A stretch of 64,000 bases of DNA, taken from positions 1 to 64,000 of the forward strand of contig NZ_JARKMZ010000042.1 in the NCBI RefSeq assembly GCF_029360775.1, read 5' to 3'. Position numbers and translations under genes: made by a program. The notes under the pieces were generated by a model. The model did not search any database. It saw nothing but the letters and a program-made list of their open reading frames with translations, and was not told where the DNA came from. Positions 350 to 9,503 of the stretch are shown in pieces. Source of the stretch: Daejeonella sp. H1SJ63 (GTDB taxonomy: Bacteria; Bacteroidota; Bacteroidia; Sphingobacteriales; Sphingobacteriaceae). Every line of letters starts with the position of its first letter. Within the stretch, counting starts at the first letter, position 1.

Positions 350-814
350 TTAGGAAAGAAGTTTTTGACGAAGTAAAAACTCAAGCTGATCATTGGAGAC
401 CGCTAGCTTACTGTTCATTTCCTTCAGTTCTTTGGCAGCTGTATAGGCTTCAAATGCTTTTTTAATGGTTTCGTCAAGCTCCTGCTCACTCCAGGGTTTA
501 CTTAAATAATGAAAGATCTTCCCTTTATTTACTGCATCAATAACTGCATTCATATCGGCATACCCGGTTAAAAGAATACGAACCGGTTCCGGATATTTTT
601 CAATTACCTTTTCAAGAAATTCGATACCTGTCATATTGGGCATACGCTGATCCGTAATGATAATCTCTACGGGCTTCGTTTCCAATAATTTCATCGCTGC
701 GTCTGCACTGGAAGCAATCAATATATTATATTTAAGCCGGAAAGTTGCCTTAAAAGAAATAAGGTTATTTTCTTCGTCATCAACATACAGTATATCGATC
801 TTTTTGTCAGACAT
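350..814 (-). CDS. Single-domain response regulator (REC)
   Basis: A 154-residue CheY-like receiver. The acidic pair D12-D13, the phospho-acceptor D55 in DQRMP, the switch threonine in LTGYAD and the lysine in LSKPW are all present. The DQRMP/LTGYAD/KPW style is that of RpfG-like receivers. Residues after about 125 form a short helical tail with no output domain. Its receiver is clearly similar to the N-terminal receiver of the hybrid kinase at 6340-7431, so the two are probably paralogues. It is divergent from the operon starting at 958 and separated by 143 bp. Inference: it takes phosphoryl groups from the kinases of that operon. The family call is secure; the output partner is unknown. Confidence 0.9.
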   Translation of the reverse strand: MSDKKIDILYVDDEENNLISFKATFRLKYNILIASSADAAMKLLETKPVEIIITDQRMPNMTGIEFLEKVIEKYPEPVRILLTGYADMNAVIDAVNKGKIFHYLSKPWSEQELDETIKKAFEAYTAAKELKEMNSKLAVSNDQLEFLLRQKLLS

Positions 815-838
815 TTGGGGGTAACATTAATATTTTAG

Positions 839-867
839 CAAAAATAAGTATAATTAATAAAAACAAG
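839..867 (-). promoter_or_regulatory. Predicted promoter of the response regulator
   Basis: On the minus strand a TATTTTTG element (839-846) matches the Bacteroidota -7 consensus TAnnTTTG, with CTTG at 864-867 as a possible -33 element (17-bp spacing, slightly short). It lies about 25 bp upstream of the ATG at 814. Confidence 0.4.
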
Positions 868-957
868 GTATTTATCAATTAATTTGCATTGCAATAACAT
901 TTTAAACGTTTTAGATACTAAATATAGCATATTCAGCAAAGATTTGCGACTGTAAGA

Positions 958-1767
958 ATGGAAATTCAATTTAACAATGGTAACCCGGTAGTCAGGTTGA
1001 GAGCGTTCAGAGCAATTGATGATCCCAGATCATGTGAATTGTTTATTGAAGGACACAGGAAAGTACTTACCAGCATAGGAGTTGAAAAAGTAACATCCTC
1101 GAACAACGAATGGATGAATAACCCTGCAGCATTCGTGATGATTGTTGAATCATTGGATAAAAAAAATATTTACGGTGGAGCCCGCATTCATGTTGCCGGT
1201 GGTTCAGAACCGCTACCTATTGAACAGGCTACCGGAGCGCTTGACCCTTCAATTTATGATCTGGTTTGGCAATATGCCCAGAATGGTACGGGTGAGGGTT
1301 GCGGACTGTGGAACTCGCGTGAGATTGCAGGATACGGCATTGGAAGTATATTCCTTACCAGAGTTGGTGTAGCCATGTCAACTCAGATCGGGCTGGATTC
1401 ATTATTCGGTCTTTGTGCTCCTTATACTGTAAAAATGGCTCAGAGTGTGGGTTATGAAATAGAATATGGAATAGGAAATAACGGCACCTTCTACTACCCC
1501 AAACTTGATCTGGTTGCAACGGTACTTATCCTCAGGGACTTGAAAAATCTGAGTGCAGCTGATGAAGAAAATAAACGGGCTATCATGGCACTCCGTGATA
1601 ATCTTCAGGGTGTTCGTATTGAAGAGCTCCGGAAGAAAAAAATCGAGATTCACTATGATATTGAAATTCCGAACATGGATCAGTGGGACCTTCAGGCTAC
1701 CATTGCCAATGCAAAGAAAATTGTATCCAGTCAAAAGATCGACGAACGCAACATAAATTTACTTTAG
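958..1767 (+). CDS. GNAT-fold protein resembling acyl-homoserine-lactone / N-acyl amino acid synthases
   Basis: A 269-residue soluble protein with no signal peptide. Residues 1-100 look like the N-terminal half of an autoinducer-synthase/FeeM-type GNAT fold (a FIEGHRKV segment, then a strand leading to GGARIHV). Residues 115-160 hold a GNAT motif A-like stretch, SREIAGYGIGS, followed by a helix and a GYEIEYG strand. The last 70 residues are helical. It is first of five same-strand genes, with a 69-bp gap to the ThiF-nitroreductase gene. Inference: an acyl or amino-acyl transferase making or modifying a small metabolite, possibly a signal. Substrate unknown. It could be an ordinary acetyltransferase. 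I am confident of the GNAT-like fold and unsure of the role. Confidence 0.7.
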   Translation: MEIQFNNGNPVVRLRAFRAIDDPRSCELFIEGHRKVLTSIGVEKVTSSNNEWMNNPAAFVMIVESLDKKNIYGGARIHVAGGSEPLPIEQATGALDPSIYDLVWQYAQNGTGEGCGLWNSREIAGYGIGSIFLTRVGVAMSTQIGLDSLFGLCAPYTVKMAQSVGYEIEYGIGNNGTFYYPKLDLVATVLILRDLKNLSAADEENKRAIMALRDNLQGVRIEELRKKKIEIHYDIEIPNMDQWDLQATIANAKKIVSSQKIDERNINLL

Positions 1768-1836
1768 TTTAGCATTTCATACATGATCTGATAAGCAGTA
1801 AATTCACCCAGTAGTACTACTTAATATTCAAACCCC

Positions 1837-4149
1837 ATGAATAACAGGCTTTCTGAGCTGAAAAAAGCATCCGGACAAATGCAACTTGTCTATAAACCTG
1901 TATTTCTGAGGATCACTGATCACTCAGAAAAGACTGCTCTTGATGAACTGATCGAGAATAATGTCTCTTTTTTTCACGACGAAATTTACGGGCAACTGCA
2001 GGAACTTGTTAAAATGAAGAGTCCTGCACAACGCATCAGGCCCGAAGATTATCCTGAACTCATCAAAAAGCACCTAGCCGGCCGCGACATTAATGCCTAT
2101 GGTGTATGGGTTTATTATCCCTGGAGCCGCAGGTTGGTTCACATGCTTGATGAAGAAGAATTCAAACAGGTAAGAACCAACCGCAATCAGTATAAGATAA
2201 CTGTAAAAGAACAGGAAATATTAAGTACAAAACGCATCGGCATCATTGGATTATCAGTTGGCCAGTCAATCGCCCTGACTTTGGCCATGGAGAGGGGATT
2301 CGGTGAACTTCGCCTTACTGATTTTGATACTCTCGAACTCAGTAACCTGAACCGCATCCGTTCATCTGTTCATAATCTTGGTGTTCCCAAAGTAGTGATC
2401 ACAGCCAGGGAAATTGCTGAAATGGATCCATTTCTTAAGGTAAGCTGTTTTTTTAACGGCCTTACTGAAGAAAATATGAATGATTTTTTCAGTACAAACG
2501 GCAAACTCGATCTTCTGGTAGATGAATGTGATGGTCTGGATATTAAAATCATGGCTCGTTTTAAAGCCCGCGAACTTGGCATTCCGGTAATTATGGACAC
2601 CAGCGACCGGGGAATGCTTGATGTAGAACGTTTTGACCTGGAGCCAAACCGTCCGCTGCTTCACGGAAGCATTGAGAATGTAGATCCTCATACTATAAAG
2701 GGACTTAGCACAGAAGATAAAATTCCAATCATGCTTCAAATGCTTGGGGTGGAAAACATTTCGCTGAGAGCAAAGGCCTCTATGATAGAAGTGGAACAAA
2801 CCATCAATACCTGGCCTCAGCTCGCAAGTTCGGTAGCCCTTGGCGGTGCTGTGGGAGCTGATGTAAGCCGCAGGATATTGCTGGATCAATATCATGCCTC
2901 CGGAAGATACTATATTGACCTTGAAGAACTGATTGGGGATAACAAAACTGAAGCAGAAATACCGCAGAGCAGAGTAAACCCTTACCATCTTCTTAAAGTT
3001 GAGGAAATGAAGCAAATGGCTTCAAAATGTAGTCTTGTAGCCGCTGGTGATGATATTTCTCCGGATAAGGATAGTATCAATAGCTTAGTAGCTGCTGCTG
3101 CTGCTGCCCCATCAACAGGAAACGATCAGCCATGGAAATGGCTTTACAAAGATGGCACCCTATACCTGTTTCATGATGAATTCAGGTCGCATTCTTTTGG
3201 AGATTTCCAGAAAACTGCTTCTTTCATCACTTTTGGAGCAGCCTACGAAAATCTGTTTATTCATGCCTTAAGCTTGGGAATAGAGCCCTATTACAGCTTT
3301 TTCCCGGATAAATCAAATGAAAAACTGGTAGCTGCAATACGTTTTAAGAAACATGCACCCAATGCACTGACAGAACTTTTAAGCCCATTGGATCAGGCAA
3401 TTTACAAGCGTCATACTAATCGGGTAATGGCACCCAGGACTGCAATTCCTCAGGATATTTACTCCCGTTTGGCTTTACTTGCAGAATCTGTCCCGGGAGC
3501 CAGAATGAGGTGTTTCACAGATGAAAATGACATGAAAGGCCTGGCAAGGATTATAGGTGCCTGCGACAGAATGCGCCTCATGCATCCCGAAGGACATTAT
3601 GATTTTGTTCACAGGGAAATGCGCTGGACTCCTGAAGATGCAGAAAAAACACTGACTGGCATTGACATCAGAACCCTTGAACTCGGAAATTCTTTACTGG
3701 CAGCAATGAGTGTTATCAAAAGTGAAAAGGTAATTAATGCCGTTAAGGATCTTGGCGGAGGCAATGCCCTGGGGATGCTTGCCATGCGCACTGTTTCAAC
3801 CGCATCAGCCTTATGCATGATCAGTATACCCGGCTATGAACTCCGGAATTTCTTTGAAGGAGGCCGTTCAATGGAAAGATTCTGGCTGGAGGCTACAAAT
3901 TTAAATCTGGCAATCCATCCTGTTATTTCTCCGCTATATCTTTTTTCGCGTATTTTGCATGGAAATGGCGAAGGACTTGATGAAAAAAACATTAAAGAGC
4001 TTCATTTTTTAAGAGAACAGTTCAACAAAATTACCGGAACAGGGAATAGCGATGCAGAAGTTTTCCTAACCAAAATTGCAATAGCCGAAGAGCCGAAATT
4101 GAAAGCACACCGTTTGCCGGTTAAGGATATTCTGTTCTTTGAAGATTAG
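1837..4149 (+). CDS. ThiF/E1-like adenylyltransferase fused to a nitroreductase-like domain (Rv1355c/MoeY type)
   Basis: A 770-residue cytosolic fusion. Residues 1-130 are an unassigned helical region. Residues 130-400 are a ThiF/MoeB/E1 Rossmann domain with a glycine-rich loop (IGIIGLSVGQS, about 132-142), the acidic DFDTLELSNLNR motif (about 161-172) and DECDGLD (about 230). I see no CxxC zinc pairs and no obvious E1 catalytic cysteine. Residues 410-770 are a nitroreductase-like FMN domain starting with APSTGNDQPW (about 422) and containing RHTNR, like Acg-type nitroreductases. The architecture matches what I recall of the mycobacterial Rv1355c/MoeY family. Inference: ATP-dependent activation of a carboxylate coupled to flavin redox chemistry on the product of the upstream enzyme. 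A run of five GCT codons at 3091-3105 encodes an alanine stretch at the domain junction. Substrate unknown. Confidence 0.85.
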   Translation: MNNRLSELKKASGQMQLVYKPVFLRITDHSEKTALDELIENNVSFFHDEIYGQLQELVKMKSPAQRIRPEDYPELIKKHLAGRDINAYGVWVYYPWSRRLVHMLDEEEFKQVRTNRNQYKITVKEQEILSTKRIGIIGLSVGQSIALTLAMERGFGELRLTDFDTLELSNLNRIRSSVHNLGVPKVVITAREIAEMDPFLKVSCFFNGLTEENMNDFFSTNGKLDLLVDECDGLDIKIMARFKARELGIPVIMDTSDRGMLDVERFDLEPNRPLLHGSIENVDPHTIKGLSTEDKIPIMLQMLGVENISLRAKASMIEVEQTINTWPQLASSVALGGAVGADVSRRILLDQYHASGRYYIDLEELIGDNKTEAEIPQSRVNPYHLLKVEEMKQMASKCSLVAAGDDISPDKDSINSLVAAAAAAPSTGNDQPWKWLYKDGTLYLFHDEFRSHSFGDFQKTASFITFGAAYENLFIHALSLGIEPYYSFFPDKSNEKLVAAIRFKKHAPNALTELLSPLDQAIYKRHTNRVMAPRTAIPQDIYSRLALLAESVPGARMRCFTDENDMKGLARIIGACDRMRLMHPEGHYDFVHREMRWTPEDAEKTLTGIDIRTLELGNSLLAAMSVIKSEKVINAVKDLGGGNALGMLAMRTVSTASALCMISIPGYELRNFFEGGRSMERFWLEATNLNLAIHPVISPLYLFSRILHGNGEGLDEKNIKELHFLREQFNKITGTGNSDAEVFLTKIAIAEEPKLKAHRLPVKDILFFED

Positions 4150-4191
4150 TTCAAATTATCTATAGCCCAGATCCCGAATAAACATTAAGGA

Positions 4192-6339
4192 ATGAAGAGA
4201 TTTTACAGTATTCTGTTCTTATTTACACTGATATGTATTCAACACCTATCAGCACAGGAACCTGTAATATTCAAAGGTAAAAACATAGTTATTGGAAACC
4301 ATATTTCAATATTAGAGGATCCCAGTAATAGCCTGAGCCTGAAAGACATTCAGAAATCAGATGCTTTTATCCCTTCAAGTGTTCCGATTCCAAATCTTCA
4401 GTTAAGCAGTTCAGATTTCTGGATCAAATTCAGCATTAAAAATGAGAGCGATCTGAATAAGATCATTCTTGCGCTTGAATATCCGATGCTCAGTGTCTGC
4501 GAATTTTATTCGATGAGAGATGGGAAAGTTCAGAGCATGAGCTATGATGATCCCTTTTCTAAACGTAAATACAAACATCAGAACTTTATTTTTGATGTAG
4601 ACCTGCCTAAAGGCGAAACTGCAAGTTATTTTATCAGGGTAAAAAGCTCGGAGCAGATGGTACTCCCACTGATTCTGGGACCGCCTAAAGAAATGGCTGA
4701 AAAAATGCTGACCAACGATCTGGTTTGGGGTATTTTTATCGGACTCATCCTGGTGATGGTAATCTATAACCTGTTTATTTACCTTTCGGTTAAAGATTCA
4801 AGTTATCTCTACTATGTTGCCTACAGCTTACTCATTGGACTAACCCAGATAACCCTCGGCGGATTTACCTATCGTTTTGTCCTGTTTGACCATCCTTCAT
4901 GGAATCATTTGGGAATAATCTTATTTCCCGGCCTGGCAGGTATAACTGGAAATCTGTTCATGATGAACTTCCTGCAAACCAAGGATAATACGCCAAAACT
5001 TCATAAGGCAATTTATGTTCCTTTTCTGATATACAGTACTGCCATTATTTTAAGAATACTGGGTTATGATCAGGCAAGTTACAGAGCAATAGATATTGCA
5101 GCCATCACAACAGTACTGCTTACATTTACCGTAACTATTTCACTTTCAAGAAGAGGGTACAGACCTGCAATTCTATTCCTGATCGCATTTAGTATGTTCT
5201 TTACCGGGCTCTTGCTATTCGTTCTGAGGAACCTGGGAATCGTGCCTTATAATGACTTCAGCAATTATACCAAAGAGTTTGGTATCGCTTTAGATGTTGT
5301 TTTACTTGCCTTTGCACTTGCCGACAAGATCAACACCTTTAAACGGGAAAAAGAACGGTCGCAGGAAGAAACATTAAAAGCATTAAAAGAAAATGAAAGA
5401 ATAATCAGGGAGCAAAATGTAATCCTTGAACAAAAGGTAAACGAACGTACACTTGAGTTAAGTGAGACAAACACCGAGTTAAATCAAACGTTAATAGATC
5501 TGAAAGAAGCTGAGGGTCAGCTTGTTGAAGCAGAAAAAATGGCTTCTTTAGGTCAGCTGACTGCCGGAATTGCTCATGAAATAAACAATCCGATAAACTT
5601 CGTAACTTCAAATGTTACTCCACTTAACCGGGATGTCGATATTCTCATCGATTTTATTTCGGAAATGGAGAAAATCGGACTTTCTGATCTTCCTGTTGAA
5701 GAGAAGAAAAGAAAGATCGAAGAACAGAAAGAAGAGTTTGATTATGATTATCTGAAGATCGAAATTGCACAGCTTCTCAAAGGTATTTACGAAGGAGCTT
5801 CAAGAACGTCTGAAATCGTAAAAGGCCTGAGAGTATTCTCTCGTCTGGATGAAGATGATTTGAAAAAAGCAGATATGAATGGTGGTCTGGATTCGACCCT
5901 CATTATTGTAAATAATTTATTAAGTAACAAAATAAAGCTCGAGAAGGTATACAGTGCGATTCCAATGATTGACTGCTATCCGGGAAAGCTGAACCAGGTA
6001 TTTTTAAATATTATTTCGAATGCTATCTATGCGATTAATAAGAAGTTTGGCGATAATCCCGGAGGAATTCTTAAAATCAGCACAAGCAGCAACGAAAAAA
6101 GCGTGTTTGTTAAAATAGAAGATAATGGTATTGGTATGGATGAGGCGACAAAGAAAAAGATCTTTGAGCCATTCTTTACTACCAAGGATGTTGGCGAAGG
6201 CACCGGATTGGGCATGTCAATTGCTTTCAACACAATAAGGAGGCATCAGGGAGAAATACAGGTTAACAGTACCCCGGGACTTGGAACAGAGTTTATCCTT
6301 GAACTGCCTATAGTACTTGAAATTACAGAAGATATTTAA
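4192..6339 (+). CDS. 7TMR-DISM sensor histidine kinase
   Basis: 715 residues. A signal peptide (1-21, ending LSAQ) is followed by a periplasmic beta-rich domain of the 7TMR-DISMED2 type (25-160), seven membrane segments (about 175-385), a coiled coil (390-450), and a kinase core. The phospho-acceptor histidine is in [10 protein letters not shown] (about 461), the N box in [10 protein letters not shown] (about 605), with DNGIGMDE (about 645) and GEGTGLGM (about 668). DISM receptors are known or predicted to bind extracytoplasmic carbohydrate or small ligands. It lies 42 bp after the ThiF-nitroreductase gene and abuts the hybrid gene. Inference: it may sense the product of the two upstream enzymes. 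Domain call secure; ligand unknown. Confidence 0.93.
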
Positions 6340-7431
6340 GTGGAAAAGCAAGACAAAATTAAAATTTTATACGTTGATGATGAGATCAATAACCTGACGG
6401 GTTTCAAGGCTTCATTCAGAATGAACTATAACATTATGATTGCAGTAAATGCAATAGATGCTATGGAACATCTCAACTCAAACCCCGATATCAGGGTGAT
6501 ATTCTGTGATCAGCGTATGCCGGGAAAAACCGGTGTACAGTTTTTTGAAGAGATCAGAAGCCGCTACCCAAAACCCATCAGAATTCTGTTAACAGGATAC
6601 ACAGATATTGATTCGGTTATCGATTCCATAAATTTGGGTAATGTCTTCAGATATGTTAAGAAACCATGGACAGATGCAGATATTCTGGGTGCAATTAACG
6701 AAGCAAATAAATTTTACGTATCCAATTCCCTGCTGGCAGTAAAAAATGAGGAACTTCAGAGAGCTTATAATGAGCTGGATAAATTCTCTTACAGCGTAAC
6801 ACACGATATGCGTGGTCCGCTTCTTAGCATTCTTGGTGCAATTGAAGCAGCACAGCATATGGAAAACATCTCTGAAATCAGGGATATGCTGATGATGATG
6901 AAAACCTCTGTTCGTAATCTGGATGATTTTATTCAGAGTATTCATGATTATTATAATCTTAACAGGGGTGAACTTGAGATCAAACAAATTGATTTTAAGG
7001 AACTTGTAGAGGAGCAGATCCGTATTTTCAGCTTTACTTACCTTGTTAGTGATGTTAAATTTAATACCTCAATAATACAAAAGGAAACTTTCAGGGGAGA
7101 TGAATTATCAATTAAGCTTATCCTCAATAATCTTTTATCCAATGCTTTTAAGTACCAGAAAAAAGATAATAAAGATAAATTTGTTGATCTGAACATTTTG
7201 GTTGAAAATGGATCGGCAATAATTGAGGTATCAGATAATGGAGTAGGAATTGCCGAGAATCTTCTGGGAGATATCTTCAATATGTTCTTCAGAGCAAATT
7301 CACATGAAGTTGGTTCAGGGTTTGGCCTTTATAATGTAAAAGTTGCTGTAACTAAATTAAATGGAAAAATTACCGTAGATTCAGAACTTAATAAAGGAAC
7401 ATGTTTCAGGGTTACCATACAAAATAAGTGA
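6340..7431 (+). CDS. Receiver-histidine kinase hybrid (REC-HisKA-HATPase)
   Basis: 363 residues, cytosolic. An N-terminal receiver (1-125) has D13-D14, D57 in CDQRMP, LTGYTD and KKPW. It is followed by a HisKA domain with histidine in SVTHDMRGP (about 155) and a HATPase_c domain with NNLLSNAFKY, DNGVGI and a GSGFGL glycine loop. The start is GTG at 6340, directly after the TAA of the upstream kinase. The next in-frame ATG (residue 28) would cut the receiver, so GTG is chosen. The zero-base junction implies translational coupling. A receiver placed before the kinase suggests that phosphorylation by the upstream DISM kinase gates this second kinase, giving a relay to the downstream receiver. 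Confidence 0.9.
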   Translation: MEKQDKIKILYVDDEINNLTGFKASFRMNYNIMIAVNAIDAMEHLNSNPDIRVIFCDQRMPGKTGVQFFEEIRSRYPKPIRILLTGYTDIDSVIDSINLGNVFRYVKKPWTDADILGAINEANKFYVSNSLLAVKNEELQRAYNELDKFSYSVTHDMRGPLLSILGAIEAAQHMENISEIRDMLMMMKTSVRNLDDFIQSIHDYYNLNRGELEIKQIDFKELVEEQIRIFSFTYLVSDVKFNTSIIQKETFRGDELSIKLILNNLLSNAFKYQKKDNKDKFVDLNILVENGSAIIEVSDNGVGIAENLLGDIFNMFFRANSHEVGSGFGLYNVKVAVTKLNGKITVDSELNKGTCFRVTIQNK

Positions 7432-7432
7432 G

Positions 7433-7831
7433 ATGTCAGCACCATTTCCACATTTTATAATTATTGATGACAGTCAGCTGGATTGTTTTATCGCTGAAAA
7501 GATCATTCAGAATACAGGAACTTTTTCCAGTGTAAAATCTTATACTGAGGCTACAGATGCACTTGAATCAATAAAAGATTTGGGTGAAAAAATTGATGCC
7601 GTAACCATTATTGTACTCGACATACAAATGCCCCTGATGAATGGGTTTCAGTTTGTTGAGGCCTTCGAACAACTCCCTTCAGAAGTTCAATCAAACTACG
7701 CTATTTTCATGTTCAGCTCATCGATCAATGAAAATGACAAGAACAGAATGGAAAATTATCCCTCAATCAGACGCTTTTATGGTAAACCGATATCAAAGGA
7801 TACTGTAGCAAGAATGATAGAGCAGCTTTGA
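7433..7831 (+). CDS. Single-domain response regulator (REC)
   Basis: 132 residues, one receiver domain with acidic D12-D13, phospho-acceptor D63 in VLDIQMP, the SSS switch region and lysine in YGKPIS. There is no output domain. It starts 1 bp after the hybrid kinase stop and is the last gene of the operon begun at 958. It resembles the lone receiver at 28414-28794 more than the DQRMP-type receivers. Inference: terminal phospho-carrier of the relay, acting by protein contact because no DNA-binding or enzymatic domain is attached. It converges on the peptidase gene, with 19 bp between them. Confidence 0.9.
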   Translation: MSAPFPHFIIIDDSQLDCFIAEKIIQNTGTFSSVKSYTEATDALESIKDLGEKIDAVTIIVLDIQMPLMNGFQFVEAFEQLPSEVQSNYAIFMFSSSINENDKNRMENYPSIRRFYGKPISKDTVARMIEQL

Positions 7832-7850: not shown

Positions 7851-9503
7851 TTATTTCAAGCCAAGAACATCAATCCCCTGTTCAAAAATTACATCTACAG
7901 GAATACCTTTTTTACCCAAACGATCCAGATCAGATTTAAGGTCTGCATGAATTAATGCCATTTCTTTCTGCACTTTCTCAACTGCATCCTTGTCTCCATT
8001 ACCCTGAAGCGTCAGAATCTTATTACTCAGTTCATTCATGGCAGATTCGAACTTTTGACAATTTACCTTGTAAGTTCCATCCTGACTACGCTCAAAAGCA
8101 CCCTGATCGTTAAAGAAATTGAAGCAAAGCATATTCGCCTTGCCATGTGCCTCACCCGCGCCAAAACGAACTGAACGCAGAATACCGGCCATAAATGTGG
8201 TATAATAATCTTTAATATCTCCTTCAAGTTCTCCCTTTTTTAAGAGGCTGCTCACCATATACAATCCCAGGATATCTGCTTTACCCTCTTCAAGCCATGA
8301 ATATTGCTCCTGAAGTGCTTCGCGGACATATCCCTTACCGGTAACTGTTGATTTAATCCCCAATCCGTGGGCAACCTCATGGAACATCACATTCGCAAAA
8401 AAGGCATCAAAATTGATATGTTTACGCTGGCTTTTATCGATTAGTTCCTGAGAAACCGGAACCATAATCTTATCAAACTTAGCCCTCATCGCATTTTTGA
8501 GTTGTGAACGCCGCGTTCCTTTTTTCTGTTGAATCTGCTCATCATTAGGCAGGTTCACAGCGATAGTTTTACCTCCTGAATTACCATCTCCTGCGTAATA
8601 AACCACGTCAAAGGCTGCCAGCTGAGAAGAAGTCCCCGGCCGCTCCTTTTTATAAGCCGCATCAACCGGTAAACCTCTTTGAAGTTCAGGAAGCATACTT
8701 ACATATTTTTCCAGACGCTTACTCCATTCCCTGTCTTTAACCAGAACATAACTTTCAAATGCAGCACGTGCATTGAACAAGCCATCTTCATAGTTTTCAA
8801 TTGGTCCTATGATAATATCCAGTCCGCTATTGGTCATATCCATCCAGGCATAGTCGCTGGCTGTATAATTATCGGTGAGTAATGCTTCTGCACGAAGATT
8901 GAGATAGTTCCTCAACTCGGGCTGTTCAGATATCTTTGCTGCTTCTTTGAGCAGCCCGGCAGCTTTGGAAAGCCCATCTTTAAAATAGACACTATATGGC
9001 ACTGAAATCAATTTCCCTGAACCATCTCTGCGAATCATGGAATAAAGTCCTTTTTTGTCAACTACATCAGACTTTTCAAGTTCTTCCTTAGTCATATTTG
9101 CAGGGTAAAATCCGGATCCTTCAGGTTTTGACCCGATACCTGCAACAAATGGCTTATCGTCATTTAGCCGGTCCCAGGGTCCATAGTTGATCATGATAAA
9201 CGCTCTCGTTTTTTCATCTTTTACAGTAGCGAGCAAGCTATCACGCTGCGGATAAGATTGCTTCCAGAACAATTCATCCATAATCTGTGCAGCCTGAATC
9301 AACAGGGGTAAAACTTTACGTTCAGCTTCTGTAAGTTTAGATATATCTGTACTAAGCTTTACTTTAGCATACATAGGGAGACGCTCTTCTACATACAATT
9401 GCAAGCTGTCTTTATTTCCTTCAGAAGCCTTTTTTTCTGAATTATTTGAACAGGATGCCATTCCCATCATGGCAAAAGTTCCAATTATCAACATTCTTTT
9501 CAT
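7851..9503 (-). CDS. Dipeptidyl-peptidase III-like (M49-like) zinc peptidase, lipoprotein
   Basis: 550 residues with a lipoprotein signal (MASC, cysteine at about 18) and a charged linker. The zinc site is HEVAHG at about 376, with a downstream EEGKAD motif at about 404 as the third ligand. Classical M49 enzymes carry HExxGH and EExxAE about 55 residues apart. This protein has the shorter HExxH form with closer spacing, as in the Bacteroidota proteins usually called dipeptidyl-peptidase 3 family. Likely role: exopeptidase on the outer or periplasmic face that trims short peptides. It stands alone, convergent with the signalling operon and divergent from a TonB-dependent receptor. Family assignment fair; substrate unknown. 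Confidence 0.75.
   Translation of the reverse strand: MKRMLIIGTFAMMGMASCSNNSEKKASEGNKDSLQLYVEERLPMYAKVKLSTDISKLTEAERKVLPLLIQAAQIMDELFWKQSYPQRDSLLATVKDEKTRAFIMINYGPWDRLNDDKPFVAGIGSKPEGSGFYPANMTKEELEKSDVVDKKGLYSMIRRDGSGKLISVPYSVYFKDGLSKAAGLLKEAAKISEQPELRNYLNLRAEALLTDNYTASDYAWMDMTNSGLDIIIGPIENYEDGLFNARAAFESYVLVKDREWSKRLEKYVSMLPELQRGLPVDAAYKKERPGTSSQLAAFDVVYYAGDGNSGGKTIAVNLPNDEQIQQKKGTRRSQLKNAMRAKFDKIMVPVSQELIDKSQRKHINFDAFFANVMFHEVAHGLGIKSTVTGKGYVREALQEQYSWLEEGKADILGLYMVSSLLKKGELEGDIKDYYTTFMAGILRSVRFGAGEAHGKANMLCFNFFNDQGAFERSQDGTYKVNCQKFESAMNELSNKILTLQGNGDKDAVEKVQKEMALIHADLKSDLDRLGKKGIPVDVIFEQGIDVLGLK

Follow-up and report, generated by a model that had tools for sequence, protein, structure and literature searches.

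A putative operon for making and sensing an N-acyl amino acid derivative in Bacteroidota, with a kinase sensor that co-varies with the finishing enzyme

Near the start of a 64,000-nucleotide stretch of Daejeonella sp. H1SJ63 DNA (contig NZ_JARKMZ010000042.1, positions 1 to 64,000; the window), we identify an operon that we think produces a lipid-like derivative of an N-acyl amino acid and detects this compound through its own membrane kinase, a reading to which we assign a probability of roughly 0.7. The operon encodes a putative acyltransferase (A), a ThiF-nitroreductase fusion acting as finishing enzyme (X), a sensor histidine kinase of the 7TMR-DISM type (K7), a receiver-histidine kinase hybrid (RK) and a lone receiver (r1), with a second lone receiver (r0) encoded divergently beside them. 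Perception of the product by K7 is suggested by co-variation: among related loci, sequence comparison indicates that K7 seems to swap its sensor half along with the finishing enzyme encoded upstream, as would be expected if the sensor reads the product of the operon. The first-pass annotation of the window had proposed a signal made and perceived by the same operon, and this proposal gains support from the co-variation of K7 with the finishing enzyme, which is marked in the sensor half and much weaker in the kinase half.

Using 201 genomes of the window's order, with the rows listed all from one family, we found A in 96 genomes. The surroundings of 95 of these A loci were fetched, and the window was used for its own genome. 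K7 is in the same cluster in 95 of the 96 loci; since nearly every A locus thus holds a DISM kinase, the arrangement is far beyond chance. A K7-type kinase (E ≤ 1e-70) was observed in 95/96 genomes with A and in 12/105 genomes without A, counts that are lower bounds with five candidates per genome fully scored. X-type ThiF proteins (E ≤ 1e-30) occur in 80 of the 201 genomes, the same as the number of A clusters that contain one. By finishing enzyme, the A clusters comprise 52 fusions, 28 with ThiF alone, and 16 with an S-adenosylmethionine (SAM) methyltransferase of ~254 amino acids (aa). Across the phylum, 13 of 395 sampled genomes contain A, 9 of them outside the window's family, and all 13 have K7 in the cluster. 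Additionally, a search with X gave at least 587 named loci, and among the best 80, some of which are order-sample genomes under their names, 75 contain both A and K7. Of the five misses, three end at a contig edge, one lies on a contig that starts inside X (L221), and one is a real exception (L213). The co-occurrence of the enzymes with DISM kinases, which the first-pass annotation had put forward as a check, therefore holds in all three samples. Named carriers include Pedobacter, Mucilaginibacter, Dyadobacter, Arachidicoccus, and Chitinophagaceae among others, and also Daejeonella lutea. In Arachidicoccus ginsenosidivorans (L161, 9416-11541) the kinase is split into two open reading frames (ORFs) of 551 and 162 aa, by a frameshift or a sequencing error.

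The slot of the finishing enzyme can be filled by four kinds of enzymes: the ThiF-nitroreductase fusion (a cyclase-oxidase), ThiF alone (a cyclase), the SAM methyltransferase, and an ICMT-type methyltransferase. The last was observed in G573 and G322, which belong to a different family; there, A and K7 are separated by a gene for a 213-aa protein of the isoprenylcysteine carboxyl methyltransferase (ICMT) family, and the two proteins match PF04140 with E-values of 3.5e-18 and 1.5e-19, and PEMT scores nearly as high. We speculate that all of the finishing enzymes mask the carboxylate of an N-acyl amino acid, as a ring or as a methyl ester, and that the resulting compound would be neutral and soluble in membranes. 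We also considered whether ThiF-only genomes might encode a window-type nitroreductase at another site; this was not supported, with 0/10 ThiF-type and 0/2 methyltransferase-type genomes positive in a search that had no positive control. One locus (L218, 2358-5465) carries a methyltransferase, a family 2 glycosyltransferase, and an NAD-dependent epimerase between X and A, perhaps for further tailoring.

The chemistry proposed for the operon follows from the family of X. X matches the NCBIfam family NF005901, the 'Rv1355c family', with 834 bits against a cut-off of 476; Pfam finds ThiF and a sub-threshold nitroreductase match (19 bits against a cut-off of 23.5), and residues 412-697 match the Acg nitroreductase (2ymv). 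The ThiF part resembles MoeB and ThiF, with D162, N170, R173, K185, and D232 of X aligning with D62, N70, R73, K86, and D130 of E. coli MoeB, which we take to be the residues of the E1 fold with a role in ATP binding. D232 is presumably also the counterpart of D217 in M. smegmatis TrzS. Judged by sequence, X is in the same family as TrzS. N-acyl amino acids are cyclised and oxidised by TrzS (PMC12856293), whereas the X-related TyzB and TyzC perform cyclisation and oxidation as separate proteins (PMC10404671). N-acyl oxazolones are the products of TrzAS, OxzAB, and TyzACB (PMC12856293, PMC10404671), with TyzACB yielding a tyrosine-derived oxazolone (PMC10404671). An N-acyl oxazolone-type compound is therefore the likely product for a member of the TrzS family, and by analogy with these published homologues the operon likely converts an N-acyl amino acid to an oxazolone.

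A would supply the N-acyl amino acid. Searches of A with hidden Markov models (HMMs) gave no Pfam family and only chance-level NCBIfam and PHROG matches, and no significant PDB match was found by sequence. An AlphaFold model of A from 61 relatives has a predicted local distance difference test score (pLDDT) of 89, and its top Foldseek match is FeeM (E 3.4e-7). Compared with solved folds, the model is closest to FeeM (2g0b, Z 16.7, root-mean-square deviation 2.6 over 174 residues), with the N-acylhomoserine lactone (AHL) synthases BjaI, RpaI, and LasI at Z 16.4, 15.7, and 15.0. These top folds agree with the initial description of A as a GNAT resembling an autoinducer synthase. The margin for this likeness is small because two plain GNATs are close behind, at Z 16.2 and 15.6, and sequence identity to FeeM and the AHL synthases in the fold comparison is 6-14%. 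From the modelled fold, A is a probable N-acyl amino acid synthase.

Outside the Bacteroidota, a plasmid search returned 13 actinobacterial records. The gene table, which is incomplete, annotates none of the genes in the four stretches inspected as a DISM kinase, and the link to the kinase has thus been seen in Bacteroidota only. By BLAST, A is not similar to the neighbouring gene of a Rhodococcus Rv1355c-family protein, a neighbour that is not established as TrzA. On a Rhodococcus plasmid (L240, 4030-8232), an Rv1355c-family gene lies near a GGDEF gene, a neighbour that resembles the predicted cyclic di-GMP genes beside M. tuberculosis trzAS. On a Streptomyces plasmid (L242, 5152-8066), a 622-codon ThiF-family gene overlaps a gene for beta-ketoacyl-ACP synthase III, possibly a different acylating partner.

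To compare K7 with the finishing enzyme, we split it into an ectodomain, a seven-transmembrane (7TM) domain, and a kinase domain, and labelled each locus as window-type fusion, other fusion, ThiF alone, or methyltransferase. We used 94 of the 96 loci, dropping L087 (kinase cut by the contig end) and L100 (no kinase). On FastTree trees the enzyme label changes 5 times along the 7TM domain and 7 times along the ectodomain, compared with 20 times along the kinase domain and 14 along A, where the possible minimum is 3. IQ-TREE gives 5 changes for 7TM, 19 for the kinase domain, and 14 for A, and shuffled labels need 39 to 50 changes (50 shuffles per tree). Because the kinase domain and the 7TM domain belong to the same protein, this pattern is not that of species history.

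A finer test was possible among the fusions, in which the nitroreductase domain is far more variable than ThiF. In a partial Mantel test controlling for ThiF, A, and the kinase domain, 7TM correlates with nitroreductase at 0.59 (n = 50 loci, 0/5000 permutations), and by gene order the value is 0.80 for the 17 A-X-K7 loci and 0.68 for the 33 X-A-K7 loci (each 0/5000). The partial correlation between the kinase domain and nitroreductase, controlling for ThiF, A, and 7TM, is 0.02. We obtained a similar contrast from 50 further loci, where 7TM gives 0.65 and the kinase domain -0.07; these derive from the 80 named loci, of which 71 have all three proteins, 54 are not close copies of the order-sample loci, and 50 are left after removal of near-duplicates. 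With enzyme type in place of nitroreductase, and A and the kinase domain controlled, the partial correlation is 0.41 for 7TM and 0.24 for the ectodomain. The ThiF-only locus L086 was kept in the trees and in this enzyme-type test and, not being a fusion, is absent from the nitroreductase test.

The same pattern is seen within a single genus, as labelled in the genome listing, with 28 loci of methyltransferase (13) or ThiF (15) type. The mean identity of the 7TM domain is 0.63 and 0.64 within the two types and 0.32 between them, compared with 0.78 and 0.67 within and 0.69 between for the kinase domain. The type changes once along 7TM and once along the ectodomain, and 3, 3, 4, and 4 times along the kinase domain, A, RK, and r0. 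For example, the congeners L056 (methyltransferase) and L060 (ThiF) have four flanking genes in common, and they share 71% identity in A (BLAST), 81% in the kinase domain, 86% in RK, and 92% in r0, yet their 7TM domains are only 33% identical.

K7 consists of an ectodomain (~25-172), a 7TM domain (~173-385), a coiled coil, and HisKA and HATPase domains. Matches to 7TMR-DISMED2 (PF07696), 7TMR-DISM_7TM (PF07695), and HATPase (PF02518) are above the Pfam cut-off, and HisKA (PF00512) is just below it. A model of residues 1-400 (pLDDT 91) has a RetS ectodomain and a 7TM bundle, and the ectodomain matches RetS 3jyb with Z 16.4. Matches of the 7TM domain to Wntless and G-protein-coupled receptors were weak and were not used as evidence, because helical bundles yield such scores by topology. 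We found 8 positions in K7 that are conserved inside each of 4 enzyme groups with at least 3 different residues among the groups, in a table covering 51 of the 94 loci (A-X order only, L086 left out). Seven of these positions are in the 7TM domain, one is in the ectodomain, and none is in the kinase domain, which holds 124 of the 200 group-conserved positions. With 7 of the 8 group-distinguishing positions in it, the 7TM domain is the best candidate for reading the ligand. The ectodomain as carrier of specificity is weaker than 7TM in most of the co-variation tests, the exception being the 17 A-X-K7 fusion loci, where it is stronger (0.89 against 0.80). Downstream, RK has REC and HATPase domains with a HisKA match just under the cut-off, and its family consensus contains conserved His and Asp boxes. 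The C-terminal tail of r0 is strongly conserved (92 rows) and may dock to its target.

Based on these observations, we propose the following mechanism. A would transfer a fatty acyl group from its thioester carrier onto an amino acid. X would then activate the carboxylate with ATP, close the oxazolone ring, and oxidise the ring by its flavin domain. The 7TM domain of K7 would detect the finished compound, possibly aided by the RetS-like ectodomain, and K7 would pass phosphate to RK, r0, and r1 to change cell behaviour through some target that is not part of the operon. Across Bacteroidota, the sensor half of K7 may form a matched cassette with the finishing enzyme, the two being swapped together with A, the kinase half, RK, and r0 left in place, such that each lineage would make and read its own version of the compound. 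More speculatively, the compound may serve as a cell-to-cell signal or as a self-monitor.

Several observations weigh against this proposal. One order-sample genome (G049, locus L100) has A and X with no K7-type kinase. In the 12 A-negative genomes the kinase is a more distant paralogue without RK or synthase (one genus), and genome G145 has a second kinase-RK-r0 set without synthase besides its full cluster; the K7 family can therefore work without a synthase. Among the six cluster proteins of the window Pfam finds no DNA-binding domain, r0 and r1 are receivers only and RK ends in a kinase, and there is thus no response regulator with an output domain of the kind found in agr and ComQXP. We recognised no exporter among the genes of the window's cluster. 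Actinobacteria had the acylated intermediate mainly in the supernatant but the oxazolone in cells (PMC12856293). Additionally, the co-variation is not confined to the sensor. With A alone controlled, the kinase domain correlates with enzyme type at 0.33 (0/2000) and with nitroreductase at 0.18 (1/5000; 0.04 in A-X-K7 and 0.32 in X-A-K7 clusters), and A correlates with nitroreductase at 0.25 (0/5000), or 0.16 (64/5000) in the 50 further loci. In L086 (G003), ThiF alone is combined with a sensor resembling the one found with the window-type fusion. Because X and the sensor are contiguous in A-X-K7 clusters, block recombination also contributes to the association. Mantel permutations also leave some shared ancestry in, and our argument therefore rests on the contrast between sensor and kinase domain and not on the permutation count.

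The paralogues also bear on the history of the kinase. The divergent r0 is beside the paralogue in 11 of the 12 A-negative genomes and is cut by the contig end in the remaining one, and r0 looks like the ancestral partner of the K7 kinase family. In three genomes with A (G119, G066, and G101) such a paralogue is present in addition to the cluster kinase; with those of the 12 A-negative genomes, these paralogues are loci L129-L143. The second set in G145 (L145, 3421-7220) could be an eavesdropping receptor.

Among other explanations, the one that fares best is that K7 is a feedback sensor, monitoring how much of its own membrane lipid is present and tuning lipid synthesis or envelope physiology accordingly, with no intercellular signal involved. 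We regard this as possible, at clearly less than even odds; it shares the perception step with the reading we prefer and differs in the role of the compound, and the odds of the two overlap. Co-variation of enzyme and sensor would be expected here as well, the lack of a recognised exporter fits it, and tryptazolones stayed mostly in cells in actinobacteria, where a stress role is discussed (PMC12856293). However, enzyme-sensor cassettes that are exchangeable within a genus resemble private signals more than a housekeeping lipid, and there is no receiver with a DNA-binding domain for direct control of the operon.

It is unlikely that K7 senses an unrelated cue, such as envelope stress or a sugar bound in its RetS-like ectodomain, and simply regulates the adjoining biosynthetic genes. 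The ectodomain of K7 does have the fold of RetS, which is described as carbohydrate-binding-like, and the synthase-free paralogues with their r0 point the same way, but such a cue gives no reason why the sensor, above all its 7TM domain, tracks the finishing enzyme and the kinase domain does so far less. Less likely again is a purely physical association, in which neighbouring DNA is swapped as a block without a functional match. In A-X-K7 clusters the enzyme directly precedes the sensor half of K7 and one pair of crossovers moves both. In X-A-K7 clusters, however, A lies in between and 7TM still tracks nitroreductase (0.68) above A (0.32), which means that contiguity alone is insufficient, and the 94 loci need just 5 label changes against the minimum of 3. 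Finally, it is very improbable that the substrate of the enzymes is a central metabolite or cofactor and that the kinase cluster is unrelated, since the likeness of the ThiF domain to MoeB and ThiF, which are molybdopterin and thiamine enzymes, is set against the action of TrzS (PMC12856293) and TyzB/TyzC (PMC10404671) on N-acyl amino acids, the FeeM fold of A, and the replacement of the ThiF enzyme by methyltransferases, a poor fit to a fixed cofactor pathway.

In the window, the ORFs of A, X, K7, RK, and r1 are all intact on the plus strand (Table 1), and the spacing given in the first-pass annotation (69, 42, 0, and 1 base pairs (bp)) was confirmed, with the GTG start codon of RK abutting the TAA stop of K7. 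HMM searches likewise confirmed the families named there, namely ThiF/nitroreductase (the latter via NF005901), DISM kinase, REC-kinase, and lone receiver. All five genes listed are real; the set was incomplete in that the divergent r0 had been missed. We count r0 as the sixth member of the cluster because it stays with the cluster in relatives: in the order sample it is labelled in 91 of 95 tallied loci and was also seen in the 96th (L108). A receiver related to r1 is labelled within the fetched stretch in 58 of the 95 tallied loci, in a few of these outside the cluster. A promoter and terminator scan gave consensus matches not above shuffles, establishing no promoter. The nearest named relatives among the matches listed are Daejeonella genomes (family Sphingobacteriaceae), at ≤85% identity over X. 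Downstream of the cluster, at 7851-9503 on the minus strand, is a gene for a lipoprotein-like peptidase of family M49; an M49 homologue adjoins the cluster in L034 and is slightly more distant in L047, two loci of the same genus.

Table 1. Genes and intergenic region of the cluster, in window coordinates.
Feature	Position	Strand	Details
r0, divergent lone receiver	350..814	-	154 aa; REC PF00072 E 5e-20 and conserved C-terminal tail
r0/A divergent intergenic region	815..957		143 bp; presumed site of both promoters; sequence read directly
A, GNAT-fold N-acyltransferase, probable N-acyl amino acid synthase	958..1767	+	269 aa; fold match FeeM 2g0b
X, ThiF-like cyclase fused to nitroreductase-superfamily flavin oxidase (TrzS / Rv1355c family)	1837..4149	+	770 aa; NF005901 E 8.5e-251
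K7, sensor histidine kinase	4192..6339	+	715 aa; PF07696 E 1.9e-29, PF07695 E 1.4e-48, PF02518 E 1.3e-21
RK, soluble receiver-histidine kinase hybrid	6340..7431	+	363 aa; PF00072, HisKA, HATPase
r1, lone receiver	7433..7831	+	132 aa; REC only, PF00072 E 7e-11

The locus would pair oxazolone-type synthesis with a DISM receptor. To our knowledge, most 7TMR-DISM receptors have no known ligand. If our reading is true, oxazolones would have a function in biology and a lipid-like ligand could be assigned to 7TMR-DISM receptors, and both questions can be tested in cultured, non-pathogenic bacteria such as Daejeonella lutea. The matched cassettes give a predicted partner molecule for each type of receptor, and the joint change of finishing enzyme and sensing half is the trace expected of a private chemical signal. 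We suggest tentatively, at a little under even odds, that the Bacteroidota possess an undescribed signalling system in which a FeeM-like synthase makes N-acyl amino acids, any one of several unrelated enzymes masks their carboxylate, and a 7TM kinase reads the product through a sensor that is co-exchanged with the masking enzyme, to give private chemical dialects akin to the pherotypes of agr. If confirmed, this would add a synthase-receptor signalling route for this phylum.

Parts of this system have precedents. Our searches of the open-licence PMC literature turned up no account that links a DISM kinase to an oxazolone or N-acyl amino acid pathway, and one may exist elsewhere; the initial statement that no described system has exactly this set of genes thus stands for the combination, and it does not hold for the enzyme pair, which is precedented by TrzAS, OxzAB, and TyzACB. 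The enzyme kinds and the layout of a synthase beside a receptor kinase are known already; new, as far as we found no description, is the joining of an oxazolone-type pathway to a DISM kinase. Like TrzAS, OxzAB, and TyzACB, the window has a ThiF-flavin oxidase fusion of the TrzS NCBIfam family beside a protein with the amino acid N-acyltransferase fold; what sets the window apart is the link of this pair to a 7TMR-DISM kinase relay, together with a finishing enzyme that can be exchanged. M. tuberculosis trzAS adjoins genes predicted for cyclic di-GMP turnover (PMC12856293), unlike the kinase cluster of the window. A shares its fold with FeeM and with BjaI, RpaI, and LasI (Z 15-16.7), and differs from them in sequence, as the identities above show.

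The closest functional parallels are signalling systems. LuxM-LuxN and CqsA-CqsS each combine an autoinducer synthase with a membrane sensor kinase, and the window similarly has a synthase gene beside a presumed receptor kinase gene. In agr and ComQXP the genes that make the signal vary in step with the sensor half, next to a conserved kinase half, and here too the finishing enzyme and sensor half co-vary. Compared with all of these, the operon has other chemistry, another receptor fold, and no DNA-binding regulator. K7 resembles the RetS-type 7TMR-DISM kinases in its DISMED2 ectodomain and its DISM-family 7TM domain, and it differs from them in its genetic linkage to a biosynthetic pathway and in having a sensor that tracks the type of enzyme.

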